Source: Gemmatimonadaceae bacterium (GTDB lineage: Bacteria > Gemmatimonadota > Gemmatimonadetes > Gemmatimonadales > Gemmatimonadaceae). From it: a DNA stretch of 64,000 bases. Below are positions 14,973-63,031 of this stretch, piece by piece. The notes below the pieces were generated by a model. The model saw only the letters and a program-made list of their open reading frames with translations. It did not search any database and was not told the origin of the DNA. Location of the stretch: assembly GCA_035606695.1 (NCBI GenBank), contig DATNEW010000028.1, forward strand, positions 1 through 64,000, read 5' to 3'. The translations under genes and the position numbers were made by a program. Each line of letters starts with the position of its first letter. The first letter of the stretch is position 1.

Positions 14973-17900
14973 ATGACGGAGCTGCGGTCACGCCTCGAGT
15001 CCAGCCTCGGCGAGGCCTATCGGATCGAGCGTGAGCTGGGCGGCGGAGGCATGTCGCATGTCTTCGTTGCCGAAGAAGCCGCGCTTGGCCGACGCGTCGC
15101 GGTCAAGGTGTTGCGCGCCGATCTCGTCGCCGAGATCTCCACGGAGCGATTCAGGCGCGAGATTCTCGTCGCGGCGCGGCTACAGCACCCCCACATCGTC
15201 CCGGTGCTGACCGCTGGTGAAATCGGCGGCGTTCCATTTTATACCATGCCGTTCGTGTCGGGCGAATCGCTCGACGTGCGGCTTGCTCGCGAAGGCGCGC
15301 TTCCCATTCGTGAGGCCGCACGCATTCTGGCCGGCATCGCGCGGGCGCTGGCGTACGCGCATCGCGCCGGAGTGGTGCACCGCGACATCAAGCCGGGCAA
15401 CGTCCTCGTCGTGGACGGAACGGCCATGGTCACCGACTTCGGCATCGCGAAAGCGATCGTCAACGCTCGGCGGACGGATTCGGGCGTGCAGCCCGATGCG
15501 TCTCGTCCGCAGGAGACCTTGACGGCGATCGGCGAGAGTGTCGGCACACCGGCCTACATGGCGCCCGAGCAGATCAGCGCCGATCCCGGAATGGATCACC
15601 GGGCCGACATTTACAGCTTTGGAATCCTCGCGTACGAGATACTCGCCGGCCGCCGGCCGTTCACCGCGAGCGGGTATCAGTCGCTGATCATCGCGCACCT
15701 GACGAAGTCGCCGCAACCGCTGGCGGAGATTCGGCCCGAGGTTCCGGCGGAGTTGGCGCAGCTCGTCACGGAATGCCTACGGAAGCAACCTGGAGAGCGT
15801 CCCGCAACGGCCGACGAGCTCGTCGCGCCGCTCGATGCGTTCGCGGCCGGTCATCGCTACCGCGGCGGCGCGCGGGCGAGCAGCGCGCCGGCCATGCGCA
15901 CGACCGACGAGCAGCGTGCGGCGGCAGCCGTCGAGCGAACGGCGCGTCCGGTCGTCGGCCGCGACTTCGAGCTTGCCGCGCTGACCGCGAGCTTCGATCG
16001 CGCGTCACACGATCGCGGGTTGGTACACGCGATCGCCGGCGAGCCGGGCTTGGGCAAGACGACGCTCGCGACCCGCTTCCTGGAACAGACCGCGGGGCAG
16101 GTCGAGCGCTGCCGCGTCGGCGTCGGTCGATGTTCGGAGCGCCTCGCTGGTGCCGAAGCGTATCTGCCCTTTCTCGAGGCGCTCGAAGGTTTGCTGAACG
16201 GTCCCGACGGAGCGCTCGTCGCGCAGGAAATGCGCGAGATAGCGCCGGCGTGGTATGCGCAGGTGCGGCCCGCGACGATGTCCGATCCGTCGGGCGCGCG
16301 GACGCCGACGGACGCGCGAGTCGGATCGGCCGAACAGATGAAGCGGCAGCTGGGCTCATTTCTCGTGGAGTTGACGCGTTCGGGCCGTCTGGTGGTCTGC
16401 CTCGAGGACGTCCACTGGGCGGACGCGTCGACGGTCGATCTGATCGTCTATCTCGCCGATCGGTTCGATACGCTGCCGATGCTGCTGCTCGTGACGTATC
16501 GGCCGTCGGATCTGTTGGCGGCGCGCCATCCGTTCGCCGACGCCGCTCTGCGCCTGCACGAGCGCGATCGTATTCGCGAAACGTTCCTGCGCGCGTTCGA
16601 CCGGCACGTACTCGGCGAATATGTCGACCGCGCGTACGAGAGCAACGAGTTTCCGAGTGAATTCGTCGATCTGATCTTTCAGCGCACCGAGGGGACGCCG
16701 TTGTTCGTGGTGGATCTCATGCGGCAGCTGGCGGACCGCGGCGTGATTGGGCAGCGCGACGGCAGCTGGCGGCTGGAGCGTGCCGCCGATACCGTCGACG
16801 CGGAAATTCCGCAGTCGATTCGCAGCGTCATTCAGCGCACGATCGATCGGTTGGACGAGCTGGATCGCCGCTTGTTGACGATCGCGAGCGTGCAGGGCGC
16901 CCAGTTCGATTCCGCGGTCGTCGCCGGCGCGACCGGATTGCCGCCGGAACAGGTCGAGGAGCATCTCGAGCGGCTCGAGCGCGTCTACGCCATGGTGCGG
17001 CTGGTCGAGGAGCGTGTGATCGGCAAGCGGCATCCGTCGCTGCGGTACGCGTTTTCACACATCTTATATCAGAATACGCTCCAATCCCCGTTGCGGGGCA
17101 CGCGTCGTATGGCGCTGAGCGCGTCCGTTGCGTCGGTGATGCACGATTTGTACGGGGACGATCCGGCGGTCGCGGCGGAATTGGGCGTGCTGCATCGGGC
17201 GGCGCGGCAGTTTGGCGAGGCGGCGCGATGCTTCCTCACCGCGGCGCGCACGGCGACGCGGCTGTTCGCCAACAAGGAAGCGGTCTTGCTCGCACGGCGC
17301 GGGCTCGACGCGGCCGCGGCGATGCCGGACGACGACGAGCGCGCACGAATCGAGCTGGATCTCCAGCTCGCGCTCGGCGTACCGCTCAACGCGCTGTTCG
17401 GTTATTCGGGCAGCGAAGTGGAATCGGCGTACTCGCGCGCCCGCGAATTGTCGGCGCGCTTCAGCGATCCCGCGACGCAGATTCCGGCGCTCCATGGTCT
17501 CTATCGGTTCTACGTCGTGAGCGGGCGCCTGCACACGGCGCGTGACGTCGTCGAACAGCTGGTGCACGTGGCCGAGGCGACGGGCGATCCGAGGCAGATC
17601 TTCATTGCGCGCACCGCGATGGGCCCGCCGCTCATTCAGCTCGGCGAATTCGAGCGCGGCGTCGAGTTCCTGCGCTCCGGCATGTCGGTGTACGATCAAA
17701 TGCGCACGGACGTCGATCGCTTGACGTATGGCGCCTTCATGCCCGGCGCATGGCTGGCGATCGCTCTGTGGATGCTCGGCGACGATGCGCTGGCGCTGGA
17801 GGAGAATCGTCGCGCGCGCGAGCACGCCGACACACCGTTCGCCAAGGCATACGCGGTCACGCTCACCGCGTGGCTGCACGCGCATCGCGGCGACGCGGAA

Positions 17901-18365
17901 TTGACGAAGCAGTATGCCGAACAAAGCATCGAGATCTCACGCACCCACGACTTCGTCCAGTGGCGTGCGGTGGGCGTGCTCTTTCACTCGTGGTCGCGCG
18001 TGGTGCTTGGCGATCATGACGAGGCGCTGTCGACGCTCGTCCGCGCGCTCGACGGATATCGCGCTACGCAGGCAGAAATGAATCTGCCGCACTACATGTG
18101 GCTGCTCGCCGATGCCTACCACCGAACGGGGAAGCCCGCGCTGGCGCTCGATACGCTCCTTCAGGCGCAAGCGGTTGCCGAGAAGAATGACAATCGGTGC
18201 TGGGAGCCCGAGTTGCATCGCTTGCGCGGCGAGATCCTGCGTGAGCGCGGTGACCGGCATGGCGCCGAGCATTCGTTTCAACGCGCGCTGTCGATCGCAC
18301 GCGATCAGAACGCGGGGTCGCTGGTTCGGTTAGCCGAGGCGAGTTTGGCTCAAATCGGTTTGTAG
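14973..18365 (+). CDS. Serine/threonine kinase fused to an AAA-type ATPase and TPR region
   Basis: 1130 aa. The N-terminal Hanks-type kinase is complete: glycine loop GGGGMSHV, VAVK (Lys 45), HRDIKPGN (about 136-143), DFG (155-157) and APEQ. From about residue 326 (VVGRDFELAAL) there is an ATPase module with Walker A GEPGLGKT (356-363) and Walker B LVVCLEDVHWAD (about 473-484), as in signalling STAND/AAA_16 ATPases. The last 450 residues are TPR-like helical repeats. It probably senses a ligand through the TPR/ATPase part and signals by phosphorylation; substrates are unknown. Its stop overlaps the convergent methyltransferase gene by 16 bp. Confidence 0.92.
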   Translation: MTELRSRLESSLGEAYRIERELGGGGMSHVFVAEEAALGRRVAVKVLRADLVAEISTERFRREILVAARLQHPHIVPVLTAGEIGGVPFYTMPFVSGESLDVRLAREGALPIREAARILAGIARALAYAHRAGVVHRDIKPGNVLVVDGTAMVTDFGIAKAIVNARRTDSGVQPDASRPQETLTAIGESVGTPAYMAPEQISADPGMDHRADIYSFGILAYEILAGRRPFTASGYQSLIIAHLTKSPQPLAEIRPEVPAELAQLVTECLRKQPGERPATADELVAPLDAFAAGHRYRGGARASSAPAMRTTDEQRAAAAVERTARPVVGRDFELAALTASFDRASHDRGLVHAIAGEPGLGKTTLATRFLEQTAGQVERCRVGVGRCSERLAGAEAYLPFLEALEGLLNGPDGALVAQEMREIAPAWYAQVRPATMSDPSGARTPTDARVGSAEQMKRQLGSFLVELTRSGRLVVCLEDVHWADASTVDLIVYLADRFDTLPMLLLVTYRPSDLLAARHPFADAALRLHERDRIRETFLRAFDRHVLGEYVDRAYESNEFPSEFVDLIFQRTEGTPLFVVDLMRQLADRGVIGQRDGSWRLERAADTVDAEIPQSIRSVIQRTIDRLDELDRRLLTIASVQGAQFDSAVVAGATGLPPEQVEEHLERLERVYAMVRLVEERVIGKRHPSLRYAFSHILYQNTLQSPLRGTRRMALSASVASVMHDLYGDDPAVAAELGVLHRAARQFGEAARCFLTAARTATRLFANKEAVLLARRGLDAAAAMPDDDERARIELDLQLALGVPLNALFGYSGSEVESAYSRARELSARFSDPATQIPALHGLYRFYVVSGRLHTARDVVEQLVHVAEATGDPRQIFIARTAMGPPLIQLGEFERGVEFLRSGMSVYDQMRTDVDRLTYGAFMPGAWLAIALWMLGDDALALEENRRAREHADTPFAKAYAVTLTAWLHAHRGDAELTKQYAEQSIEISRTHDFVQWRAVGVLFHSWSRVVLGDHDEALSTLVRALDGYRATQAEMNLPHYMWLLADAYHRTGKPALALDTLLQAQAVAEKNDNRCWEPELHRLRGEILRERGDRHGAEHSFQRALSIARDQNAGSLVRLAEASLAQIGL

Positions 18366-49020: not shown

Positions 49021-50316
49021 TCAGAGCACGCCGAGCCACTTCGACTGGTCGCCCGTGAACCCGGGGAACACGGCCTCCATCTTCGCGGCGCCCAAGTGCT
49101 TGAACGCTACTTCCGAGAAGACCGAGCGGAAGTCGGTCGTCAGCGCGAGATCTCGGCCCTCGTTCAACTGCTCGGGCTCGAGCCCCGGCCACTTGCCGTG
49201 GACCTTGCGGCCCTTCACGTCGCCACCGATGACGAACATCGACGTCGCGTGGCCATGATCCGTCCCACCGTTGCCGTTCTGGTGCGCCGTGCGCCCGAAC
49301 TCGGACATCGTGAGGATCGTGACGTCGGACATGCGTGGCCCAAGATCCTGCACGAGGGACGCGATCGACCGCGAGAAATCATCGAGCCGCCCGGCGAGCT
49401 GGCCCGTGGCACCGCCCTGATTGACGTGCGTGTCCCAGCCGCCGACGTCCGCGAACGCGATCTCCAATCCGACATCGGCCTTGATGAGCTGCGCGATCTG
49501 CTTCAGGTGCTGTCCGAACGGCGAGTTCGGATACGTCGCGCCGTTCTGCGGGATGTACTGCTGCGGATTCGCCGTCTTGAGGATCTTCATCGCTTCGAAC
49601 ATCTCGCCGCCCGCGGCATGCACCACGTCGGCGTTCCCCGTGCGGTACAGTGCCTCGAGCCGCTCGGCCTGCGTGCCGTTCGTGCGAATCGTGAATTCGT
49701 CGAGCGAGTTCATAGCGACGGTCGCCGCGTTGCCCTCGAGAATGCGCGGCGTCTGCGGAGTCATCGCCACCGCCTGGAACGGCGAGCCCTTGGCGTGCGC
49801 GCCCGCGTCGTTCAAGTGGCATTCGTCGCACGTGCCCTTCACGGCGAGATAACGATTGAGCCAGCCGTCTCTCGTGCCTTTGTTGTCGGGTGTTCCGCTT
49901 TCCATGTAGTCCTGCGCGTCGAAGTGCGAGCGCGTATTGCTTGGACTGCCGACGGCGTGGACGGGTGCGAGAATGCCGTCGTCCCAGAGTCGCTTGAACG
50001 GCGAGAGAGATGGATGCAAGCCGAAGAATCCGTCGAGGTCGATCGCGGTTTGCGCGGCGCCGGAGACGGGACGCGGGATCGCGATCGTCGGACGCATGCT
50101 GTAGTACGCTCGTTCGCCGTGCGGTACGACGACGTTGAGCGCATCGGCCGCGCCGCGCTGGAAGAGCACGACCAGCACCTTCCCGCGTCCGTTGCCGTTG
50201 AGCGCCGCACCCTTGACCAGATCCTGCGCGAAGACCGTGCGGCGAAGGAACGAGGGATTCAACCCCATCGTCGCCAGCGCCATCGCGCCCGACTTCATGA
50301 ACACTCGGCGTTTCAT
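49021..50316 (-). CDS. DUF1501 family protein
   Basis: 431 aa. The signal MKRRVFMKSGAMALATMGL is Tat-like. GKVLVVLFQRGAADALNVVVPHGE and WDTHVNQGGATG with VTILTMSEFGRTAHQNGNGGTDHGHA are the DUF1501 signatures, a fold related to alkaline phosphatase/sulfatase. It pairs with the DUF1800 gene just upstream, a constant association in many phyla. The role is unknown, probably an extracytoplasmic hydrolase or attachment complex. Stop is next to the AT-rich spacer. Confidence 0.92.
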   Translation of the reverse strand: MKRRVFMKSGAMALATMGLNPSFLRRTVFAQDLVKGAALNGNGRGKVLVVLFQRGAADALNVVVPHGERAYYSMRPTIAIPRPVSGAAQTAIDLDGFFGLHPSLSPFKRLWDDGILAPVHAVGSPSNTRSHFDAQDYMESGTPDNKGTRDGWLNRYLAVKGTCDECHLNDAGAHAKGSPFQAVAMTPQTPRILEGNAATVAMNSLDEFTIRTNGTQAERLEALYRTGNADVVHAAGGEMFEAMKILKTANPQQYIPQNGATYPNSPFGQHLKQIAQLIKADVGLEIAFADVGGWDTHVNQGGATGQLAGRLDDFSRSIASLVQDLGPRMSDVTILTMSEFGRTAHQNGNGGTDHGHATSMFVIGGDVKGRKVHGKWPGLEPEQLNEGRDLALTTDFRSVFSEVAFKHLGAAKMEAVFPGFTGDQSKWLGVL

Positions 50317-50358: not shown

Positions 50359-52371
50359 TTAGCGTCTTTGAAATTCCGGCGAGCCCAGCGCCAGTCCGAC
50401 GACTTGCGGCAAGCCCTGCAGGTTGATCGGCCGCGTGCCGCCAATCGGTTGATTCGCACCGCGGCCTCGTCCAAGCGCCGCTTTGTTGCCCAGCCCCGCC
50501 GCGCGGGCGCGCGCGGGCGCCATCGTCGCCGTGTCCGCCATGACATTCGGATCGGTCATGCTGCCCATGTCGTTCGGCGCATTCTTCGCGAGCGGGTTCT
50601 CGCCGCTCAGCAGGACATCGCGTGTTTCGGTCGACACCTGACCACCGAGTAATGATTTCACGACGCCGTCGACCTGCTGGTCGCGCGGTTGAGTGCGGAG
50701 TGTCGCGAATTGCGGCCAGTTGTTGAGCCGTGCGTTCGGAATCTGTCCGGCGGCGAGCGCCAGACCGAAGTTGATGCGATTGAGAATCGCGCCCGTGTTC
50801 ATCCACGCGTCGGCGCGGTCGGGCCAGCCTTCGGGCGTCTGGTGACCGAAGATCGGCTCACCAAGGCGCGCGACGAGCTGCGAGCTGCGCGGCGTCGTAT
50901 CCGGCTGCGCGTTCACGGCGCGCAGCGCGCTGGTCACGAGCTCGAACGGCGTCTTCACCTTCGAGCGATACGCCGCTCGGCTGAAGAACTCCGGCGACAC
51001 GACGATGCAGCGCAATGTTTCGCGAATGTCGCCGTCGGTCTTCGTGAACGTGTTCGCGCAGCGGTCGACGAGCGCCTTCGGCGGATCGTCCGACACGAAG
51101 TGGCGCGCGAGCTTCGTCGTGATGAAGTGCGCGGTCGCCGGCGCGTGCGCGACGATGTCGAGCACCTCTTCGCCTTCATCCTCGCCGTGTCCGGCGGGGA
51201 ACGTGTGTCCCAGAATCGTCTTTTGGTCGGCGTCGTGAATGGCGGGATTGAAGACGAACTGGCCCGTCTGCCGATTGAACGTCCAGCCGGTGAGCGCGCG
51301 CGCGACTTCCTGCACGTCCTTCTGCGTGTACCCGCCGTCGACGCCGAGGGTGTGGAGCTCCATCAGCTCGCGGGCGTAGTTCTCATTGAGGCCGCGCCGC
51401 GCCTGCTGCTGCAGGCGTTGAATGATTTGCTGCCGCTGCTCCGGCGTCGCGTTTTCGAGTTGCTGGCGAATCGCCGGCGGCACGTTCGCTGGAATGTTTT
51501 GACCAGTCAGAATCGCCGGCCGCCGCGCGATGATGCCGGGCCGCCCGCCGCGTCCACCACGTCCGCGCGCCGCGAGCGTCGCATGCGTCGAGTCGGCGGC
51601 ACTTTGCCAATTGTCGAGGAAGAACAACATCGCCGGACTCTTGGCCACGGCGCCCAGCAGGTCGCGGAACTTGCCGAGCGCGTGTGGGCGAATGACGTCG
51701 CGTTCGTATTGCGGGAGAAAGAGACGTGTCTGTCCCTTGCCCGCGAACACGCTGAAGTGGTTCTCCCAGAAGTCGACCATGACTTCGTCGAGCTGCCGGT
51801 CGGTGGTCACGGCGCGCGCCACCTTCTCCGATGCGATCTGTCCGACGAGCTGTTGATTCTGCCGAACGAGTTGCGCGAGCTGCTGATTGTCGGCCAGCGC
51901 TTCCCGCCGCACGTCCTTCTTGTTCATGTCGCTGTCGGCGGACGCCTTGGCCTTCACCTGCCGCTGCAGCTTCTGCGCGACGGTGTAGTCGTTGACGATG
52001 TCGCTGGTCGGCACGCCGTAAATCGCGTAGTGCGTCATCAGCGAATCGGTGGCTGCGTCCGGAATGCGCTCGGGGTGAAGCTGCCGGTCGATCCAGTTCT
52101 CGATGCCCATCGCGCGCACGGTTTCGACGTCGCCGGGGCGGGCGCCGAAGGTCAAGCGGTTGAGCACTTGCTGAATCTGTTCGTCGGGCAGGAGATCGCC
52201 GATTTGCATCGGACCGGACGAGGCCATCGGCGGAGCGCTGACCGTCGCGTTGACCGGGGGCCGAGCGGACGCGCCGGTGGACGCCGGCGTCGAAACCGTC
52301 GTGGCGCGCGACGCGCAGGCGGCCGCCGCGACGGCAACGAGCGATGCGGAGAGATGTCGGATGCTTCGCAT
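50359..52371 (-). CDS. DUF1800 family protein
   Basis: 670 aa. Signal-like N-terminus (HLSASLVAVAAAACAS) with a weak lipobox. LNRLTFGARPGDVETVRAMGIENWIDRQLHPE and VDFWENHFSVFAGKG, then NENYARELMELHTLGVDGGYTQKDVQEVARALTGWTF, are the family signatures. The partner DUF1501 gene follows 42 bp downstream. ATG at 52371 is preferred; TTG at 52386 is the alternative. A Gly/Arg-rich insert (ARGRGGRGGRPG) lies mid-protein. Confidence 0.92.
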   Translation of the reverse strand: MRSIRHLSASLVAVAAAACASRATTVSTPASTGASARPPVNATVSAPPMASSGPMQIGDLLPDEQIQQVLNRLTFGARPGDVETVRAMGIENWIDRQLHPERIPDAATDSLMTHYAIYGVPTSDIVNDYTVAQKLQRQVKAKASADSDMNKKDVRREALADNQQLAQLVRQNQQLVGQIASEKVARAVTTDRQLDEVMVDFWENHFSVFAGKGQTRLFLPQYERDVIRPHALGKFRDLLGAVAKSPAMLFFLDNWQSAADSTHATLAARGRGGRGGRPGIIARRPAILTGQNIPANVPPAIRQQLENATPEQRQQIIQRLQQQARRGLNENYARELMELHTLGVDGGYTQKDVQEVARALTGWTFNRQTGQFVFNPAIHDADQKTILGHTFPAGHGEDEGEEVLDIVAHAPATAHFITTKLARHFVSDDPPKALVDRCANTFTKTDGDIRETLRCIVVSPEFFSRAAYRSKVKTPFELVTSALRAVNAQPDTTPRSSQLVARLGEPIFGHQTPEGWPDRADAWMNTGAILNRINFGLALAAGQIPNARLNNWPQFATLRTQPRDQQVDGVVKSLLGGQVSTETRDVLLSGENPLAKNAPNDMGSMTDPNVMADTATMAPARARAAGLGNKAALGRGRGANQPIGGTRPINLQGLPQVVGLALGSPEFQRR

Positions 52372-52569
52372 GAAGATTCCAATCAACGTGGATCGATGTG
52401 ACTGGAGGGTAGACGCCTGGCTGCCTCGACGCGTTAACCTGCTTTCACGCTAAGACTCTCCGTTCTGGCGACGGCGTGTCACAATTCGTCGTGCGGTAGA
52501 TCACACGCTGCCACACTCTTGCGCCTCGCCCAACGCCATCCTACGGTTTGAGAGAGTGCCGACGGGTCG

Positions 52570-55500
52570 ATGTCGGCTGCAACCGCCTTCCCGCCTGTCC
52601 CGTCGGTAGTGCCTCATTTTTATCGTACGTCGGATGAGTTCGTCGCCGCCGCGCAGGCAGCCGTCGCGGGCGCCGCGCCGCGGCAGCCCGTGGCTGTCCT
52701 CGTCGCTGAAGTCGACCCGTCGCCGGCGCCAGCAGGGGTGCTGCCGCCTGCCGAGTCGGCGATCGGCGCGGTGGCGGAAGTGCTTCGGCACACGCTGCGC
52801 GAGGATGACATGGTTGGTCGCTTGGGCGACCGGTTGATCGTCGTCATCCCGGGCGCCGCCGCCGAGGATGGACGGGCGGCGGGTGATCGCCTCTGCGCCG
52901 CGGTGCGCATTCACGCGTTCGGCGAAGGCCTGGGCCAGCTCACTCTCTCGGTGGGGTCAGCGTCGGCGCCGGAGCACGGTCACGCCTTCGACGCCGTGTC
53001 GAGCGCTGCCGGAACGGCGCTCGTGCGCATTCAGGCGCAGGGAAGGGACGGCGCCGCGGCGGCTCCGCTGCCGCATCACGAGTGGCTGCATCGCCCGCTG
53101 TCGATCGATCGCTTTGCCGGTCGCGCGCAGGAGCTCGGGCTGTTGGTTCGGTGGCTCGACGAGGCCGCGTCGGGACAGCCGCGCGTGGTCTCCGTATTCG
53201 GCGAGGCAGGCCTTGGCACCGCGACGCTGCTCCGGCAGCTCGAGGGCGAGGTGCGCTTGCGCGGCGGGTTGTTCGTGAGTGTCGCGAGTCCCGATCTCGC
53301 CGTGCGGAAGCCGTATGGCGTGTGGCAGTCGTTTTTGCGCGCGACGCATCGCTTCCCGACGGCGCCGGACAAGGAATGGCAGGAGCTGCATCACCTGGAG
53401 AGCTCGCTGCGCTCGAGTGAGACGAGCGGCCACACGGGCAGCCAGTATCGTCTGTTGGGTGAGCTCACGGACTATGTGCGTGCGCTGGCGGCGAATCGTC
53501 CGCTGGTGATCGTGCTCGACGAGATGCAGTGGGCCGACGGCACCACGTGGGACGCGCTGGAGCATTTACTGTCGCAGCTCGACGTCGACCGCATGATGAT
53601 CTGTCTGGCGCATCGCCCCGACTCGGCGTACGAGGGATCGACGTATCGGCAGATGCTCGCGCGCCACGATTTCTCGCGCGAGATCACGCTGTCGCGTCTG
53701 ACGCGCGACGAAGTGAAGCAGTGGCTGGAGGCGGCGTTTCATCGCCAGCAGGTGGCGCGCGAGTTTTTAGCGTTCTTGTACCGCCACACCGAGGGCAACC
53801 CGCTGTTCATCGCGCAGTTGTTGCGCGCGCTGGGAGAGGAGGGGGCCATCTGGTGGAATGGCAGCCGCTGGGAGTGGAGCCCGGTGTCGGAGCTGCGGTT
53901 GCCGGCGGGCCGGCGGGCGCTGCTCGCGAGGCGTGTCGCGCGGTTTTCGTCGAGCACGCAGGCGGTCTTGGGTACCGCGGCGATCGTCGGGCGCGAGTTC
54001 GACGTTGGGCTATTGGTGGCGGCGGCGGCGGGGAGCGAGCCCGCGGTGCGGCTGGCGATCTCGGAGGCGGTGAATGCCGGATTGCTGCGGGCGACGAATG
54101 ATCGAAAGACCGGGGCGTACGCGTTCGATCATGATGAGATCGCGGAGGTGCTGGTCGCGGCGGTGCCGTCGCATCAGGTGAGGCAGCTGCATTATCGGGT
54201 GGCGCAGGCGTTGGAGAAGCGGCGGCCGGATCGGCTGGGGGAGATTGCGCTGCACTATGATGCGGCGGAGGTGCATGGAGAGGCGTATCGCGCGGGGCAG
54301 GCGGCGGCGCGGGCGGCGGAGAGTGTCTATGCGCACGTGGCGGCGCGTGACTATCTGCAGATCGCAGCGCGGAATTCGACCACACCGGGCGAGCTCGCCG
54401 AGATCAGAATTGCGCTTGCGCACATCGCGGAGACGCTCGGGCATCACGATGAAGTCGAAGAATTGTGCGACCTGGCGATCGAGTGGTTTGAAGGGCAACA
54501 GGATGAGCGACGGGCGTTGACGTTGCGGCGGATGCGGGAGCGGGCGCGGATGGAGTTGGGGCAGCCGGCGCGGATCACACTCGACGCATTGGTCAAGCTT
54601 GATGATGAAGCGAAGCGTCTCGGCTTCGGGCACGAGCGTGTCGCGTTGTTGATGATGACATCGCAGACGTACGGACGGCTGGGCGATCAAGCGACTGCCG
54701 CGCGGATCGCGACGGAATGTGTCGCGATGGCCGAGAACATCGACGACCCGGCGCTCCTCGGCGATGCATTGAACCGATTGGGAAATTCGATGGCATCCGA
54801 GTCGCCGGCGCAGGCCTTGGCCGCCTACGAGCGCGCACTCGATCTGTACGAAAGCGTCGGTGATGTTCGCGGGCAGGCTCGCAGTTACGGCAACATGGGG
54901 AACGCGGCGCAATTCGAAGCGCGGCTCGAAGAAGCGCAGAACGCGTTCGCGCGCTCTATCTCCGTTGCGAAGGCGGCAGGGATCCCGGACTTGTGGGGGT
55001 CCGCTGCTGTGAATCTCGGCGTTCTGCTCCAAAAGTGCGGAGAATATGACCGCGCGCGAGAGCTCTTCGGCGAAGCGCTGGCACTTTTCGCAGCCGTTAA
55101 ACACAGTGAGTTTCAGTTAGCCGCGCTCTACAATATGGCGCACGTCGAGCGCGAGCTCGGCTTGTGGGAATCGGCCGGAGAACTTTACGAGGCGACTCGG
55201 CCATTGGCTGAACGAATTGGGCAGTACGAAATCCAGCTTGGAGCGATCGCTGGGAGCGGCATATGTGCCCTAGAGCTGGGTCGGCTTGACACGGCACAAA
55301 TGGCGGCGCGCGAGGTCGAGTCGTTGATCGAGGACCGGCCCAACTGGTTCCAGGGACGCGAAATCGCTGAGGCTTTGATCATTCGAACGGCTGCCGCGGC
55401 CGGTCGCGATCGGGACGCCTTGTCCCGATTTGACCGGGCTGTCGCCCTCGCTGAGGCGACCGACGTTTACAATGCGGCTTGGCTAACGGCCATTTGTGCC

Positions 55501-55623
55501 GATTCGCTTCGCCGCATCGACCCGGCACGGGTCAATCTGTCCGTAGATCGGTACTCAGTGAAGGTGCGGAGCCTCGGATATCCGGAAATGACAAGGCGTT
55601 ACGATGTCTTGACAGCGGAGTGA
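52570..55623 (+). CDS. Degenerate GGDEF domain fused to a STAND-like ATPase and TPR region
   Basis: 1017 aa. The first 160 residues resemble a diguanylate cyclase fold, but the signature is LGDRL (85-89) in GRLGDRLIVVIPG, so no catalysis is expected. From about residue 180 an ATPase module follows. Its Walker A is GEAGLGTAT (211-219), with Thr in place of the invariant Lys; Walker B LVIVLDEMQWADG is intact. The last 450 residues are TPR repeats such as AYERALDLYESVG. It resembles the kinase-ATPase-TPR protein at 14973 but lacks a kinase. It is probably a ligand- or nucleotide-sensing scaffold. Confidence 0.88.
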   Translation: MSAATAFPPVPSVVPHFYRTSDEFVAAAQAAVAGAAPRQPVAVLVAEVDPSPAPAGVLPPAESAIGAVAEVLRHTLREDDMVGRLGDRLIVVIPGAAAEDGRAAGDRLCAAVRIHAFGEGLGQLTLSVGSASAPEHGHAFDAVSSAAGTALVRIQAQGRDGAAAAPLPHHEWLHRPLSIDRFAGRAQELGLLVRWLDEAASGQPRVVSVFGEAGLGTATLLRQLEGEVRLRGGLFVSVASPDLAVRKPYGVWQSFLRATHRFPTAPDKEWQELHHLESSLRSSETSGHTGSQYRLLGELTDYVRALAANRPLVIVLDEMQWADGTTWDALEHLLSQLDVDRMMICLAHRPDSAYEGSTYRQMLARHDFSREITLSRLTRDEVKQWLEAAFHRQQVAREFLAFLYRHTEGNPLFIAQLLRALGEEGAIWWNGSRWEWSPVSELRLPAGRRALLARRVARFSSSTQAVLGTAAIVGREFDVGLLVAAAAGSEPAVRLAISEAVNAGLLRATNDRKTGAYAFDHDEIAEVLVAAVPSHQVRQLHYRVAQALEKRRPDRLGEIALHYDAAEVHGEAYRAGQAAARAAESVYAHVAARDYLQIAARNSTTPGELAEIRIALAHIAETLGHHDEVEELCDLAIEWFEGQQDERRALTLRRMRERARMELGQPARITLDALVKLDDEAKRLGFGHERVALLMMTSQTYGRLGDQATAARIATECVAMAENIDDPALLGDALNRLGNSMASESPAQALAAYERALDLYESVGDVRGQARSYGNMGNAAQFEARLEEAQNAFARSISVAKAAGIPDLWGSAAVNLGVLLQKCGEYDRARELFGEALALFAAVKHSEFQLAALYNMAHVERELGLWESAGELYEATRPLAERIGQYEIQLGAIAGSGICALELGRLDTAQMAAREVESLIEDRPNWFQGREIAEALIIRTAAAAGRDRDALSRFDRAVALAEATDVYNAAWLTAICADSLRRIDPARVNLSVDRYSVKVRSLGYPEMTRRYDVLTAE

Positions 55624-55744: not shown

Positions 55745-56455
55745 ATGCGCGTGACTTTCAGAAACCTGGCCGCGACCGCGGCAATTCTTGCGGCCGCTGC
55801 TTGTGGCGACTCCACGGTTGCTCCGAGCTCGGCGTCTTCAACGCTGCTGCCGACTGACCGTGCTCCGTCTTTCGATCTTTCGCTAGCTGGCAACTTCGGC
55901 AGCGATTTTACGCTGACGTCGAGGGGCGGCACGTTCTCGGTCGCCGGCGTATACACGGTCAATTTCCCGGCGAATTCCGTTTGCGATCCCGCGACCGCGA
56001 ACTACAGCGCTGGCCAGTGGGATGCACCGTGCGCGACGCTCGCCGCCGGACAATCGGTGAAGGTGCACGCGACTCTCGGACTCTCGTGGTCCGGCGTTTC
56101 CGTGGACTTCCAGCCGGAACTCCGGTTTTCGCCAAATGCGACCGTTACGATCGCGACCGACATCTACGCTCCGATCATCGTCGCGAATCGCAATTATTAC
56201 GCGGCACATCCGCAGGCACTTGGTCCGTTAGCGATGGCGTACTCGTCGACGCTCGGCGGCGCTCGCGTCGCGGACTATGTCACCGATCCCACGGCGATCA
56301 CTCACATCAGTCTGATGACGGGCCGCGTGTGGCGGAGAATCAAGCACTTCAGCGGATATAACATTTTCACTGGCGAACAGTGCACGCCGACGCAGTACAA
56401 CAGTGACTGGTGCGTCGATGTCAGTGGTCAACAGGACCAGCTTACCGGCCCGTGA
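55745..56455 (+). CDS. Lipoprotein of unknown function
   Basis: 236 aa. A lipoprotein signal (RNLAATAAILAAAACGDST) is followed by a beta-rich part with GTFSVAGVYTVNFPANSVCDP and a Cys pair. Later YYAAHPQALGPLAMAYSST and EQCTPTQYNSDWCVD. Four Cys could form two disulfides. No family recognised. A strong terminator follows, so it is a single transcription unit; no ribosome binding site is evident upstream of ATG 55745. Confidence 0.72.
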   Translation: MRVTFRNLAATAAILAAAACGDSTVAPSSASSTLLPTDRAPSFDLSLAGNFGSDFTLTSRGGTFSVAGVYTVNFPANSVCDPATANYSAGQWDAPCATLAAGQSVKVHATLGLSWSGVSVDFQPELRFSPNATVTIATDIYAPIIVANRNYYAAHPQALGPLAMAYSSTLGGARVADYVTDPTAITHISLMTGRVWRRIKHFSGYNIFTGEQCTPTQYNSDWCVDVSGQQDQLTGP

Positions 56456-56475: not shown

Positions 56476-56508
56476 GGCCCCGGCGGTTATCCGCCGGGGC
56501 CTTTTTTT
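56476..56508 (+). terminator. Rho-independent terminator
   Basis: GGCCCCGGCGG pairs with CCGCCGGGGCC around TTAT, followed by seven T. It ends the lipoprotein gene transcript 20 bp after its stop. Confidence 0.9.
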
Positions 56509-56575
56509 GTATGGGTGCTTGTCGTTCTCGCGCTCCATCGCCAATGTCGTTCGCCGCGAATTGCGGTCTAGGTAC

Positions 56576-58048
56576 ATGAGGAGCTTCGTCGTGTTTCGCC
56601 GTGACGGTCGTTGTTGGCCTGTTGCTGTCTTACTCATCGCAGCAGTCGGGACCCCGGCTGCGTCGCAGCAGCAACGCTCCCGCGTCTCACTAGCGACAAC
56701 GCGGCTCGTTCTCGGCAATGGCCTAACCGTTCTTCTGAATGAAGATCGGTCCGCGCCCGTCGCAGCCGTCGACGTCTGGTATCGCGTCGGTTCGGCGGAT
56801 GAGAATCCGGGTCAGGCTGGATTCGCCCACGCCTGTGAACATCTGATGGGACTCTCCTCGCCGAACGGGTCGGATGCGGCGTCAACGTTTCTCAGATCGA
56901 TAGGTGCGGTTTCAGGCGGACGCCGTGGGGCGTGGGCGACCACTGCGGCGGAGTATACGCAGTACTACGAAACGATACCGAGCGACAAGCTCGAGACTGT
57001 GCTGGCTTTTGAAGCGGCTCGGATGGCCGCTCCGTTCGCGCGCGTTGACTCTCAACATTTCAATTCGATTCGTTCGGTCATCCGCCAGGAGCGAACCCTG
57101 CGGGTCGACAACGTGCCGTTTGGCGAGTCGGTCGACATTACGCGCGAGGCCATTTTTCCAAAGGATGATCCGCTGCACTCGCCACCGCTCGCTCCACTCG
57201 CGGATCTCGACACGGCGCGGCTGGAGACAGTGGTCGACTTTTGTGCGGAGTACTATCGCCCAAACAACGCCATTGTCGCGATAAGCGGCGACTTCGCGAC
57301 GGACTCGGTTGCTCGCCTTCTTCGGCGGTACTTCGAGCCAATTCCTCGCGCGCAAATCCGAGCGCGTCGCCTGTCGTCGGCGACCCAGCTTCGCGGTGAG
57401 CGACGCCTGGTCATTCAGGGCCCGCGCGCCAACACGAGCCGACTTCGCTTTGCGTGGCGAGCGGTTGGTTTCTCGAGTCCGCAAAAGATGCCGCTGTACG
57501 CGCTCGCCGGCGTCATGAGCGGCGATAAGTATGGTTTCAGCCGATTCGGCCGTCTGGCCGAGGCGCTTATGCGCAAAGAACCGCTCGCGACGTTCGTTCA
57601 CGCGGAATTGTACGATTTCCAATCCGAAGGAATGTTCGTCATCGATGTCACGGCACGTCCCGGTGCGTCCCTCAGTCGGATCGAACGCGTCGTCGATAGC
57701 GTCATCGCGGATTTGGCGGCAACTCCAATTCGGCCCTCTGAATTGGAGGCATTCGCGAACCTCAACAGCGTAACGGCAGTCACTGCCCTGCAACCCAGAT
57801 CGGCGAGGACTGATACTTTGGCGCAGAGCGAGATGTGGACACATGACCCGCAGACGTATTCGAAGCAAATCGCTCGAGCGTTCTCGATCGCTCCGGCTGA
57901 CGTTCAAAAAGCAGCGCGTCAGTTCCTCGGGCCTTCGCGTGTAGTCGTCAGCATGGTTCCCGCCGGAAAGCTGGCGGATATCAGCAAGCCAGAGTTGCCC
58001 TATGACGATGTCACGCCGGTTGCGCATGGCCGAACGAGGCCGCAATGA
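56576..58048 (+). CDS. M16 family zinc peptidase, active subunit
   Basis: 490 aa. Signal-like start (VAVLLIAAVGTPAASQ). The zinc motif HxxEH reads HACEH in AGFAHACEHLM, and a downstream Glu in the RMAAPF/QERTL region is the third ligand. The other blocks (VWYRVGSADENPGQ, ISGDFATDSVARLL) are as in PqqL/zinc-peptidase pairs. It probably cuts peptides in the periplasm as a heterodimer with the following gene, whose ATG overlaps its stop (ATGA). ATG at 56576 starts it. Confidence 0.92.
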   Translation: MRSFVVFRRDGRCWPVAVLLIAAVGTPAASQQQRSRVSLATTRLVLGNGLTVLLNEDRSAPVAAVDVWYRVGSADENPGQAGFAHACEHLMGLSSPNGSDAASTFLRSIGAVSGGRRGAWATTAAEYTQYYETIPSDKLETVLAFEAARMAAPFARVDSQHFNSIRSVIRQERTLRVDNVPFGESVDITREAIFPKDDPLHSPPLAPLADLDTARLETVVDFCAEYYRPNNAIVAISGDFATDSVARLLRRYFEPIPRAQIRARRLSSATQLRGERRLVIQGPRANTSRLRFAWRAVGFSSPQKMPLYALAGVMSGDKYGFSRFGRLAEALMRKEPLATFVHAELYDFQSEGMFVIDVTARPGASLSRIERVVDSVIADLAATPIRPSELEAFANLNSVTAVTALQPRSARTDTLAQSEMWTHDPQTYSKQIARAFSIAPADVQKAARQFLGPSRVVVSMVPAGKLADISKPELPYDDVTPVAHGRTRPQ

Positions 58049-59469
58049 GCTGGCCGATGCGGGCGTGGGTGTTCGGCATGTCAGTCTGGGCCGGAACCGC
58101 GCGCGCACCCGTCGTTCGTGCCCAGTCGCCGACCACGGTCGGACCACGAGTGATCTCTGATTTCGCGGTACCGGTCGTCCACGCGACGACTTTGCAAAAC
58201 GGTGTCCGCGTTCTCGCGGTCGAGAACCACTCGCTTCCAATCGTATCCGTGCGGGTGATGCTCGGAGTCGACTCACTCGATGACCCAACCGGAAAGGAGG
58301 GTCTAAGTGAGCTGATGACGTCTACCATGGCCGATGCGACAGACAAGGTTCCCGAGCAGGAACTGAGCGACAGCGAGGCGATGCTCGGCACGCACATTTC
58401 GCCAACGCGTTTTACGACCACGACGAACAATTTCCGTGCGGCGATCCTCCTCCTCGGCCAGATCATAGAACGTCCGTCATTTCCAGAGGATGGAGTTGCG
58501 CGCGCGAAGTCCGCAATAGCGCAACGCGTGCAAAGCCAGTATGCCGCGACGGCACCCGTACGTGTCTTCTTCAGCATCTTGCTCGCACCTGGCAATCCTG
58601 CGCGCCGCACGGCGACACCCGCGAGCGTGGATGCATTGACGCGCGCTGACGTCGTCTCATTCTACAAGACGGCAATTCGGCCCTCACGCACGACCGTCAT
58701 CATTGTCGGCGACGTCATGCCGACGCAGGCATTCGCGTTCGCGAAATCCGCGTTCGGCAAATGGATCGTGACATCGGCTATGGAGACTCGCCCGTCGGAA
58801 TTTCCCGTGAATGCCGCGACACCCACGACCATCTACCTGGTCGATGTTCCCGGACGATTGCGAACGTCCATCCTGGTGGGCCAACTCGGCCCGCAACGAG
58901 ACACGGCAGTGATGCCGGCGGTAGATGTCCTTGCCGATATTCTCGGACAGGTAGGCGGGAGCCGGCTCCAGGTCGAGTTGCGCGACAGGCGCGGCTTCAT
59001 GTACGCCGGGATTCCGTACGGAGTCGATTGGCGTCCAACCCCACAACGCTCAATCCAGGCCGGTTCGGCATCTGTCGATGCGGTGAAGGTCGATAGCGCA
59101 TTGATTGCGTGGCTAGGCGCACTGCGCGACGTTCGCGGGCCGTCTCCTGTTACGGCGAAGGAACTCGATTTTGCCGAAGGAGTTGCGGTAGCGTCGCTGC
59201 CGACGAGGTTCGAAACCACAGACTCAGTCGCGTCGCAGGTCGCCGAGGCCGTTCGTTACGGGGGTGAACTGCGTGATCTCGAACAGTACGTTCGCGCAGT
59301 CAGAGGCCTATCGCCCGAAAAGGTTACTCGTGCCGCGGAGCGCTACATCGACCCCGGCCACCTCACCATCGTCGTCGCGGGCGACCGCAAAACTCTCGAG
59401 CCTTTACTGCGTCGGGCCGACATCGCTCCCATCGTCATCGTCGACGAGAACGGCAACCCAAAACCTTAG
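58045..59469 (+). CDS. M16 family peptidase-like protein, non-catalytic partner
   Basis: 474 aa. Same fold as the preceding peptidase, but the zinc motif position reads GLSELM, with no HxxEH, so it is the structural partner. It keeps the C-terminal blocks VIIVGDVMPTQAF and QVGGSRLQVELRDRRGFMYAGI. Signal-like N-terminus (VFGMSVWAGTARAPVVRA). The pair is coupled by ATGA. Confidence 0.9.
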   Translation: MSWPMRAWVFGMSVWAGTARAPVVRAQSPTTVGPRVISDFAVPVVHATTLQNGVRVLAVENHSLPIVSVRVMLGVDSLDDPTGKEGLSELMTSTMADATDKVPEQELSDSEAMLGTHISPTRFTTTTNNFRAAILLLGQIIERPSFPEDGVARAKSAIAQRVQSQYAATAPVRVFFSILLAPGNPARRTATPASVDALTRADVVSFYKTAIRPSRTTVIIVGDVMPTQAFAFAKSAFGKWIVTSAMETRPSEFPVNAATPTTIYLVDVPGRLRTSILVGQLGPQRDTAVMPAVDVLADILGQVGGSRLQVELRDRRGFMYAGIPYGVDWRPTPQRSIQAGSASVDAVKVDSALIAWLGALRDVRGPSPVTAKELDFAEGVAVASLPTRFETTDSVASQVAEAVRYGGELRDLEQYVRAVRGLSPEKVTRAAERYIDPGHLTIVVAGDRKTLEPLLRRADIAPIVIVDENGNPKP

Positions 59470-60902: not shown

Positions 60903-61086
60903 TCTGAGCGTCATGTGACCGAAGCCACTGCACGACGGTTAAACAAGGAACATCGTGGAGCGTTGCGGGTCGAATCCTGTTGACGCTTCAGGGTGCGCAT
61001 CGTTGGCCGAAACTTCGATGCGTCCGGAATCGTCGAGGTAGTAGGGATGGTCGAGCAGGACCCGCAGGACCAGCAGTACCACATAC

Positions 61087-61092
61087 AGGAGG
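61087..61092 (+). promoter_or_regulatory. Consensus Shine-Dalgarno that fixes the start at 61098
   Basis: A perfect AGGAGG 5 bp before ATG 61098. The open frame extends upstream to GTG 60993, but that start has no such site, so 61098 is the likely start. Confidence 0.7.
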
Positions 61093-61097
61093 GGGGC

Positions 61098-61640
61098 ATG
61101 GACATCCTCGTGATGCTCGAGGAGAACCCCGATCACTCGCCGGTGCTGGCGCATGTGAACTCCGTCCCGTCGCCGTTGCATTCACACGAGCGGCCGTCGC
61201 GAGACATCGTGACGTTGTACGGGGAACCAAATCCGGAGGCGCTTGCGTTGGCGCTTGCGGCAGCCGTCGAGTCACACCGATCGAATGACGGCAACAGAAC
61301 CGAGGCCATTCGGCATCTCGGCATCTGGCCGGAGCGTGGGGCCGTAGGGGACGCTGCCTGGAGAGATTCAGCAGGGCAGCTCGTAACGACCGATCTCGAG
61401 ATCTCCCTCGAGACGTTGCATTCCACGGCGAATCAGTTGCTGTCGGAATGCGGACAGTTGATCCGGCGGCTGGTCGCAGGCCTGTCGATGCCGGATTGGC
61501 CGGACGGAGCTCGGCGAGCCATCAGTATTTCGATTTCGCCGATCGTTGGACTGACTGGACCGGTGTTCGCGCCGCTCGAAAGTGTCATCGAGCGCATGAG
61601 AGAGGCTGATGGACTGGCCTTCGAAACCGAAGGAGATTGA
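61098..61640 (+). CDS. Protein of unknown function upstream of the RiPP genes
   Basis: 180 aa. Soluble with no signal peptide: MDILVMLEENPDHSP, GEPNPEALALALAAAVESH, ISLETLHSTANQLLSECGQLIRRLVAGLSMP and ISISISPIVGLTGPVFAPLESVIERM. It ends with acidic residues. No family recognised and it does not look like a precursor peptide (no short leader/core layout). A perfect AGGAGG sets the start. A terminator follows, so it is not in the YcaO transcript. Confidence 0.65.
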   Translation: MDILVMLEENPDHSPVLAHVNSVPSPLHSHERPSRDIVTLYGEPNPEALALALAAAVESHRSNDGNRTEAIRHLGIWPERGAVGDAAWRDSAGQLVTTDLEISLETLHSTANQLLSECGQLIRRLVAGLSMPDWPDGARRAISISISPIVGLTGPVFAPLESVIERMREADGLAFETEGD

Positions 61641-61759: not shown

Positions 61760-63031
61760 TTGCGGCGGCCCGGTTCCGAGCCGATTTTAGCCCTCCCGCC
61801 AACGGACGCCGTCGCCCGCGTGCACCGTCTCCATTCCAGCCTCAGATCCGTCGCACCCGACGAAGCCCTGGCGCGCGCACGACACATGGGCGCACGACTG
61901 GGCGTCTCTCGCGTGACGGACACCACGCGGCTCGATCGCATCGGCATTCCGGTGTTTGCCGGCATTCGTCCCGATGCGGCCGACCATTCGCTGTGCGTGA
62001 GTGCCGGCAAAGGCGTGCGGCCGATCGAAGCGCAGATCGGTGCTTATATGGAAGCGGTGGAGCTCGCGGTCGCGGAACGATGTGCGTTGCGAGACGCCAT
62101 TCAGCCCATCGATCCGCGCGACGTGTTGTCGCGAAGCTCGATGTCGGGACTCATCGATCTCTGTCCGTTGCGCGGAGTGCGGCACAATACAGCCGATTCC
62201 GTCGACTGCGTCGACGCGGAAGAACTCCTCTCGGGCGCCACCGTATCTGTTCCCGCGGAGCTCGTGTTCTTTCCGTATTTGCCCTCCCAAGGCCGGCTGT
62301 TCGGGAACACGACCAACGGGCTTGCGTCAGGCAGCACGGTCGCCGAAGCGACATTGCACGCGCTGCTCGAAGTGGTCGAGCGTGACGCGGTATCGTTCAT
62401 GAACGTACGATCCGGCGTCCGCGGCGTTCGTCTGGACACGCTGCCCTCGACGGTCCGCGCGTTGCTCGGCGCGATCGAGTCGGCGGATTGCGAGATCGCT
62501 GTGCGTGAATTGCCCAGCGAGTTCGGGCTGCCGACGTTTCACGCCGCCGTGTTCGACCGCGCGCGCATCGCGAGTCTGACCGTGGCGGCTGGCTACGGCT
62601 GCCACGCCGATCCCGAAATCGCGCTGGTGCGCGCCGTGACCGAAGCATGTCAGAGCCGGCTGACCGCGATTCACGGCGGACGCGACGATCTCGATCGATG
62701 CGAGGCGCGCGTCGACGCACGTCCCGCGGGCGAACATGACCGGATCGCGGAGGAACAATTCCGGCGCATGGCCGCGTGGCCGGACGTCGCGTCGTTCGAG
62801 ACCGTGCGGGCATCCGTCAACGTTGGCGGCAGCGTCGATGCGGCACTCGCGCAAATCCTCGCGCATCTTCAAGCGCGCGGCGTCAACCAGGTGTGCCGCG
62901 TCGCCCTTACTCTCGACGCCGACGAGATGAGCGTCGTACGCGTCATCGTGCCGACGCTCGAGTGTTTCAATCGGGACGTCGCGCGTGTCGGTCCACGTCT
63001 GCTGCGAGCGATGCATGCCCGCGTCGCGTAA
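61760..63031 (+). CDS. YcaO-domain protein (RiPP azoline- or thioamide-forming enzyme)
   Basis: 423 aa. The YcaO fold is shown by the N-terminal HSSLRSVAPDEALARARHMGARLGVSRVTD and by the ATP/Mg-binding blocks AYMEAVELAVAE, ATLHALLEVVERDAVSF and RAVTEACQSRLTAIHG. YcaO proteins use ATP to activate the peptide backbone. With a TfuA partner they are known to form thioamides, as in thioviridamide-type clusters and archaeal McrA. TTG at 61760 is used here; GTG at 61820 is the alternative. No signal peptide. The next gene overlaps it by 17 bp. The true start and the peptide substrate are not visible. Confidence 0.93.
   Translation: MRRPGSEPILALPPTDAVARVHRLHSSLRSVAPDEALARARHMGARLGVSRVTDTTRLDRIGIPVFAGIRPDAADHSLCVSAGKGVRPIEAQIGAYMEAVELAVAERCALRDAIQPIDPRDVLSRSSMSGLIDLCPLRGVRHNTADSVDCVDAEELLSGATVSVPAELVFFPYLPSQGRLFGNTTNGLASGSTVAEATLHALLEVVERDAVSFMNVRSGVRGVRLDTLPSTVRALLGAIESADCEIAVRELPSEFGLPTFHAAVFDRARIASLTVAAGYGCHADPEIALVRAVTEACQSRLTAIHGGRDDLDRCEARVDARPAGEHDRIAEEQFRRMAAWPDVASFETVRASVNVGGSVDAALAQILAHLQARGVNQVCRVALTLDADEMSVVRVIVPTLECFNRDVARVGPRLLRAMHARVA

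Follow-up and report, generated by a model that had tools for sequence, protein, structure and literature searches.

Architecture and predicted fold

The window analysed here, a stretch of 64,000 nucleotides from a Gemmatimonadaceae bacterium (assembly GCA_035606695.1, contig DATNEW010000028.1, positions 1 to 64,000 of the forward strand), contains at 52570–55623 a gene for a protein in which a GGDEF-fold domain, a STAND nucleotide-binding domain and a TPR superhelix follow one another. A degenerate active site (A-site) in the GGDEF domain, loss of the P-loop Lys of the ATPase and retention of the residues of the I-site, a likely binding site for cyclic di-GMP (c-di-GMP), are common to a single clade of homologues with a conserved locus, hereafter the derived clade. 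Judged from sequence, the protein is rather probably a conserved pseudoenzyme, acting as a c-di-GMP receptor on a STAND/TPR scaffold. Its features are as follows.

52570..55623, plus strand: short-form degenerate GGDEF-STAND-TPR protein, 1017 aa (open reading frame with ATG start)
52627..53064, plus strand: degenerate GGDEF-fold domain, residues 20-165 (Pfam, predicted model, diguanylate cyclase structural matches)
52798..52809, plus strand: I-site RxxD, R77-E-D-D80 (conservation in derived rows)
52825..52836, plus strand: degenerate signature GDRL in place of canonical GGDEF, preceded by a one-residue deletion (alignment)
52888..52890, plus strand: R107, putative third I-site residue, equivalent by spacing to R794 of SgmT as described in PMC3509222 (derived rows)
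53110..53604, plus strand: STAND nucleotide-binding domain, AAA_16, residues 181-345 (Pfam; match to MalT 8bob_C)
53200..53226, plus strand: degenerate P-loop GEAGLGTAT, 217 Lys to Thr and 218 Ser/Thr to Ala (alignment)
53503..53538, plus strand: Walker B LVIVLDEMQWAD (alignment)
53794..53802, plus strand: G-N-P, a STAND GxP-like motif (equivalence by motif; role as described in PMC6468293)
54130..54132, plus strand: H521, presumed to serve as the winged-helix His in the STAND pocket (role suggested by H382 of PH0952)
54370..55599, plus strand: TPR superhelix, residues about 601-1010 (Pfam, predicted model)

Pfam placed GGDEF at residues 65–160 (E 2.7e-8) and AAA_16 at 181–340 (E 1.3e-19), with the best stretches of the TPR families lying between residues 734 and 975. 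A first-pass annotation, made from the letters of the window alone, had described a degenerate GGDEF signature and a P-loop with Thr for Lys within otherwise kept GGDEF and ATPase folds with a Walker B motif, all of which was confirmed by Pfam and by predicted models: the signature reads GRLGDRLIVV, the P-loop FGEAGLGTATLL, and the Walker B strand is kept. Its suggestion of a binding rather than a catalytic device is likewise well supported at the level of sequence and predicted structure.

The model of the whole protein (predicted local distance difference test, pLDDT, 87.8) had as its top Foldseek match in the PDB the STAND-TPR protein PH0952 (6mfv_A, E 3.6e-15; Z 24.5, root-mean-square deviation (rmsd) 10.5, 600 aligned), while residues 180–613 matched the nucleotide-binding oligomerisation domain (NOD) of MalT (8bob_C; Z 25.4, rmsd 4.2, 368 aligned), and Apaf-1 (3sfz) also matched the model (Z 22.0, rmsd 4.5, 397 aligned). 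The predicted protein has the core of nucleotide-binding, helical and winged-helix domains together with a TPR sensor fold. Modelled alone, the GGDEF domain (pLDDT 90.6) found its best PDB match in PleD (2wb4_A, E 4.1e-8), another cyclase, 6hbz_A, aligning over 152 residues (Z 19.7, rmsd 3.1). Both folds, GGDEF and STAND, are kept in these predictions; since the input alignments of the predictor for both models also contained intact relatives, the models inform on fold and not on ligand pockets.

Distribution and phylogeny

Searches of 59 relatives gave a match in 52 (E ≤ 1e-3), and searches of 179 genomes of the family gave 88 matches in 56 genomes (E ≤ 1e-80); in an even draw of 395 genomes from the phylum, the 43 that matched at E ≤ 1e-60 all belonged to the window's own family. 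A scan of genome contigs with the window protein alone as query returned no matches. The same scan with an alignment as query returned 69 loci, the close ones labelled Gemmatimonadetes, Gemmatimonadaceae, Gemmatimonadota or Gemmatimonas, and the distant ones coming mostly from Chloroflexi classes, with 24–32% identity in the STAND part.

The main alignment comprised the window protein and 73 homologues, made up of 72 of the 88 family matches (window included) plus L051 and L070 from the search of the 59 relatives. The remaining 16 family matches were checked separately, and stand outside the trees, the parsimony counts and the 39 long rows referred to below; 15 were of the long kind, one (L201) was a contig-end piece resembling it, and none was a derived short form. 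A tree of 72 rows, which omits the fragments L050 and L070, resolved 33 short-form rows as one clade (Shimodaira–Hasegawa-like approximate likelihood ratio test, SH-aLRT, 99), the other 39 rows being long. Within the short-form clade nests the derived clade, comprising 24 genomes of 6 genera of one Gemmatimonadota family, the window included (SH-aLRT 99), and the basal short members come from 8 genomes of 5 genera; L046 and L051, which lie at contig ends at a tree distance of about 0.01, were treated as one gene of one genome. A further tree, of 34 rows, was built with the GGDEF domain excluded along with the ATPase motifs; it also omits L046, L049 and L051 and includes 4 of the 39 long rows. 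Its 23 derived rows were again recovered as a clade (support 100/99).

Two long paralogues, L053 and L054, are found in the window genome itself. Each has about 1600 residues, with TPR, HD (HD_5/HD in Pfam, of HD-GYP type by HD_5), GGDEF, AAA_16 and TPR domains, and they share 37% and 34% identity with the window protein over the common GGDEF-STAND-TPR part, but differ from it in having an intact A-site and P-loop and in missing RxxD. The short-form protein probably arose from such a TPR-HD-GYP-GGDEF-STAND-TPR enzyme when the N-terminal half was lost, a direction that follows from an assumed root of the 72-row tree on three divergent long rows.

As side observations, L053, L054 and other long forms, which combine an intact A-site with the lack of RxxD, are the mirror image of a degenerate receptor, and in 4 genomes (L056, L115, L116, L117) two long paralogues of this architecture lie near each other on one contig.

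Loss of the cyclase active site

In the window protein, the GDRL signature is accompanied by Glu in place of the metal-binding Asp (E47) and by A55 in place of the guanine-binding Asn. The guanine-binding Asn corresponds to N335 of PleD. It was found in none of the 24 derived rows (0/24), in 8/8 basal short rows and in 39/39 long rows, and the five A-site residues checked were all intact in 0/24, 7/8 and 39/39 respectively, the eighth basal short row belonging to a contig that starts within the GGDEF domain. Together with the P-loop Lys, the A-site was also intact in 16/16 extra family matches, giving 55/55 long forms overall. Parsimony counts for eight A-site columns were 8, 10, 8, 8, 7, 4, 3 and 9 changes in the derived clade vs 0, 0, 0, 0, 2, 0, 0 and 2 in the long forms, a rise equalled by only 3 of 100000 random eight-column sets.

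Most of the live rows carry AGDEF, which is compatible with activity by analogy with VCA0965, an AGDEF-bearing protein reported in PMC3974145 to make c-di-GMP. That the derived A-site is itself still in use, with a different nucleotide or with residual cyclase activity, is highly improbable: three derived rows of one genus (g20) do retain GGDE and the metal Asp, but the guanine Asn is gone even there, and the window protein has lost the signature and the metal Asp as well.

Retention of the I-site

R77 is present in 24/24 derived rows, D80 in 21/24 (Glu in 3) and R107 in 23/24 (His in 1), so that a strict R..D..R triad occurs in 20/24 and R..D/E..R in 23/24. The latter triad occurs elsewhere in 8/8 basal short rows, 19/39 long rows and 10/16 extra family matches (29/55 long forms overall). 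Within the derived clade, parsimony required 0, 1 and 1 changes for R77, D80 and R107, where the average for the domain over 138 columns was 7.17, and 93 of 100000 random column triads showed as few. The same columns underwent 7, 4 and 10 changes in the 39 long forms and are therefore not structurally obligatory.

Three further residues, R113, H115 and D160, were equally fixed, with 0 changes in 24 derived rows vs 13, 18 and 8 in the long forms. We know of no role for them in c-di-GMP binding, and they perhaps mark an interdomain surface. Their invariance favours an alternative in which the protein is purely a scaffold, its GGDEF domain and NOD being structural spacers for the TPR superhelix that bind no nucleotide, with R77, D80 and R107 retained for holding the GGDEF domain against the NOD. 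This alternative is unlikely, since coincidence would be needed to place the named I-site triad among the most conserved columns of a domain whose A-site decays.

The STAND nucleotide pocket

The comparison of orthologous P-loops proposed in the first-pass annotation bore out the substitution seen in the window protein: the Lys is missing in 23/24 derived rows, where it is replaced by Thr (18), Ser (2), Ala (2) or Cys (1), and is present in 8/8 basal short and 39/39 long rows. The Ser/Thr position after Lys217 is Ala, Leu or Val in 13/24 derived rows, Arg349 is kept in 18/24 and lost in 6/24, and, of the Walker B acids, the second is Asn in 6/24 and the first non-acidic in 2/24. Kept in all 24 derived rows are G214, G216, GR184-185 and GxP, and H521 is present in the 23/23 with sequence at that point. 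In PH0952, ADP is described as contacted by the P-loop, the GxP residue and a winged-helix His, H382 (PMC6468293); GxP and the winged-helix His were equated with these residues by motif rather than by superposing the structures residue by residue. Overall, the pocket seems to have lost its phosphate/Mg side and kept its adenine/closed-form side.

A displaced lysine of the deviant Walker kind was looked for in P-loop columns 209–221 of the 24 derived rows and rejected, the sole Lys being that of L047 at position 217 itself (codon AAG). L047 sits deep within the derived clade, and the proteins closest to it in the tree carry Thr. Two changes are required by the tree: the Lys may have been lost once and then regained through a single base substitution, or it may have been lost several times within the genus.

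MalT and PH0952 resemble the predicted window protein in joining a NOD to a TPR sensor, but they switch on ADP/ATP exchange, whereas the window protein has lost the P-loop Lys and carries an N-terminal degenerate GGDEF domain. It is quite unlikely that its NOD remains able to bind ADP or ATP in the absence of the Walker Lys, cycling slowly as a nucleotide-dependent STAND switch. The kept glycines, GR184-185, GxP and H521, with motifs comparable to those by which PH0952 contacts ADP, speak for it, as does the Lys of L047; against it stand the loss of that Lys from all other derived rows and the changes at the following Ser/Thr, at Arg349 and at both Walker B acids. Of the two ligands that the first-pass annotation had offered, ATP is weakened by the lost phosphate/Mg side of the pocket, even though the kept motifs include some whose counterparts in a relative touch adenine and the beta-phosphate, while the sensing of c-di-GMP gains from the retained R77, D80 and R107.

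Selection on the derived proteins

Maximum-likelihood (ML) omega lay between 0.017 and 0.076 across four domains and four genus-level derived sets, and the derived proteins are under purifying selection; in wider codon sets, long trees suggest saturated dS. Of the 24 derived frames, 22 cover the query fully or nearly so without internal stops, and L049 is a contig-end fragment.

These data bear on whether the degenerate state might be a strain-level defect, a decaying gene or a sequencing error, as the first-pass annotation had held it would be if intact orthologues were found. Such orthologues do exist (8 genomes), but in other genera, and the explanation has next to no probability, because the degenerate state is that of one old conserved clade. 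It is common to 24 genomes and 6 genera with near-full frames, low omega and the conserved synteny described below, which rules the explanation out.

Genomic context

The following neighbours in the window recur at related loci.

49021..50316, minus strand: DUF1501 neighbour, conserved synteny (Pfam, locus comparison)
50359..52386, minus strand: DUF1800 neighbour, divergent, conserved synteny (Pfam, locus comparison)
55745..56455, plus strand: small downstream protein of 236 aa in a conserved position, with no Pfam family above cut-off
60993..61640, plus strand: conserved downstream protein of 215 aa without a Pfam family (locus comparison)

A DUF1800 gene lies divergently upstream in the window and, among the fetched derived loci whose upstream sequence reaches 1.8 kb or more, in 19/20 (L049, L091 and L100 fall short of that length), L098 being the exception. 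The DUF1501/DUF1800 pair also occurs at 4/6 basal short loci with upstream sequence, at a distance of 1.5–2.5 kb in three, and was for that reason rejected as an operon partner explaining the loss of the active sites. For the DUF1800 family, a connection with the chitin synthase operons of bacteria has been proposed (PMC5122149). The 215-aa protein shows 54–88% identity in 23 short-form loci, and its gene lies downstream in 19/23 fetched derived loci; it is missing at L098, L103 and L049, where the downstream sequence ends within 1 kb, and at L047, where it extends for 8.6 kb. An M16 peptidase pair at 56507–59469 had matches in only 1/33 short-form loci searched (L046, 30% and 23% identity) and is probably a local insertion in an otherwise conserved neighbourhood. 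A YcaO-domain protein is also encoded in the window, at 61760–63031 (E 3.7e-60).

The gene at 14973–18365 had been put forward as a second ATPase-TPR protein with both active sites, and hence as a natural comparator. Its P-loop is indeed intact (GEPGLGKTT), but Pfam finds no GGDEF domain in it; it is a Ser/Thr kinase-AAA_16-TPR fusion, and makes a poor comparator. Co-occurrence is weak, with 7/40 genomes (its own included) matching at E ≤ 1e-100; matches in other genomes show 37–60% identity, and 4 of 9 cover the kinase part only. The protein was rejected as a comparator on both grounds. Its kinase domain scores E 4.4e-47, and there is a partial match to the TOMM kinase/cyclase fusion family TIGR03903 (382.8 bits, below cut-off).

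Proposed function and related systems

A receptor or scaffold is favoured over a broken enzyme because the likely c-di-GMP site has been kept across many species. As a receptor, the protein would descend from an ancestral short-form GGDEF-STAND-TPR protein that lost the active site of the cyclase and the Lys that binds ATP phosphate, and kept the I-site. c-di-GMP made by other cyclases, for which the window genome has 14 further predicted GGDEF places, would bind at R77, D80 and R107 and may change the packing of the GGDEF domain on the NOD; the resultant shift would expose or hide a face of the TPR superhelix for a partner, with the NOD no longer cycling between ATP and ADP and serving as a rigid or ADP-locked hinge. 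The usual presence of DUF1501 and DUF1800 genes as neighbours prompts the guess that what the protein controls is related to the cell envelope or to a product that the cell exports. In a bolder version, doubtful as it stands, c-di-GMP would have replaced ATP as the multimerising ligand of the STAND switch: bound at the I-site it would cross-link the GGDEF domain of one protomer to that of another, the NOD would no longer need ATP to drive its assembly, the P-loop would decay, and the TPR hub would become directly c-di-GMP-gated.

Several results weigh against a receptor. The drop in I-site changes relative to the long forms is unexceptional, 11541 of 100000 random triads being as extreme; the motif is RxxE in three derived rows, and R107 is His in one. 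RxxD is generally frequent among GGDEF domains. The dead GGDEF domain is also less constrained (ML omega 0.025–0.066 vs 0.017 in basal short rows) and diverges faster than the remainder of the protein, its dN/dS by the NG86 method being about 0.13–0.40 in six pairs of genus g2 and 0.07–0.10 in three g20 pairs, with 0.01–0.08 in two pairs of live domains, although every value, dead or live, is below 1. Among the conserved neighbours there is no obvious c-di-GMP output.

Degenerate-GGDEF receptors are already known, and by its residues the protein files among those of the SgmT/PopA kind: it has the GGDEF fold but lacks the intact A-site of an active diguanylate cyclase, and it has a STAND fold but lacks a functional P-loop. 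PopA, PelD and CdgA, which have partner domains other than those found here, provide further examples. These three are cited in PMC3974145 as degenerate cyclases serving as c-di-GMP receptors. Another precedent, SgmT of Myxococcus xanthus, is described as a c-di-GMP binder with a degenerate A-site and an intact I-site triad, as here, and the spacing of its R763, D766 and R794 (31) compares with 30 for R77, D80 and R107 once one deleted residue is allowed for (PMC3509222). Unlike the window protein, it is described in that source as a GAF-histidine kinase-receiver-GGDEF protein, in an account that mentions neither STAND nor TPR parts, and its degenerate domain can reportedly exert its effect by sequestering all of SgmT into clusters (PMC3509222). 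In BcsE, a regulator of enterobacterial cellulose secretion, a degenerate GGDEF domain is described as binding c-di-GMP through RxxD and as able also to carry a protein-protein interface. The degenerate GGDEF domain with RxxD is common to both proteins, and the N-terminal region of BcsE is predicted to be RecA-like; BcsE differs in having a receiver domain, likewise degenerate, and an N-terminal domain that stands apart, and the likeness is one of published description. Among the papers listed in searches of the open-access literature, titles and abstract openings gave no description of an architecture that joins a degenerate GGDEF domain to an inactivated STAND domain, with live-looking intermediates in living genera.

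If the receptor reading is correct, one bacterial family would hold a natural series leading from a live long enzyme through a live-looking short form to a twin-dead receptor, with most of the short forms sharing one locus, and a comparison of present-day orthologues would put the conversion of a cyclase plus ATPase into a signal receptor directly to the test. Gemmatimonadota would also gain a c-di-GMP receptor, where the window genome has 15 GGDEF places (the window protein included) and 4 EAL places vs a single PilZ place.

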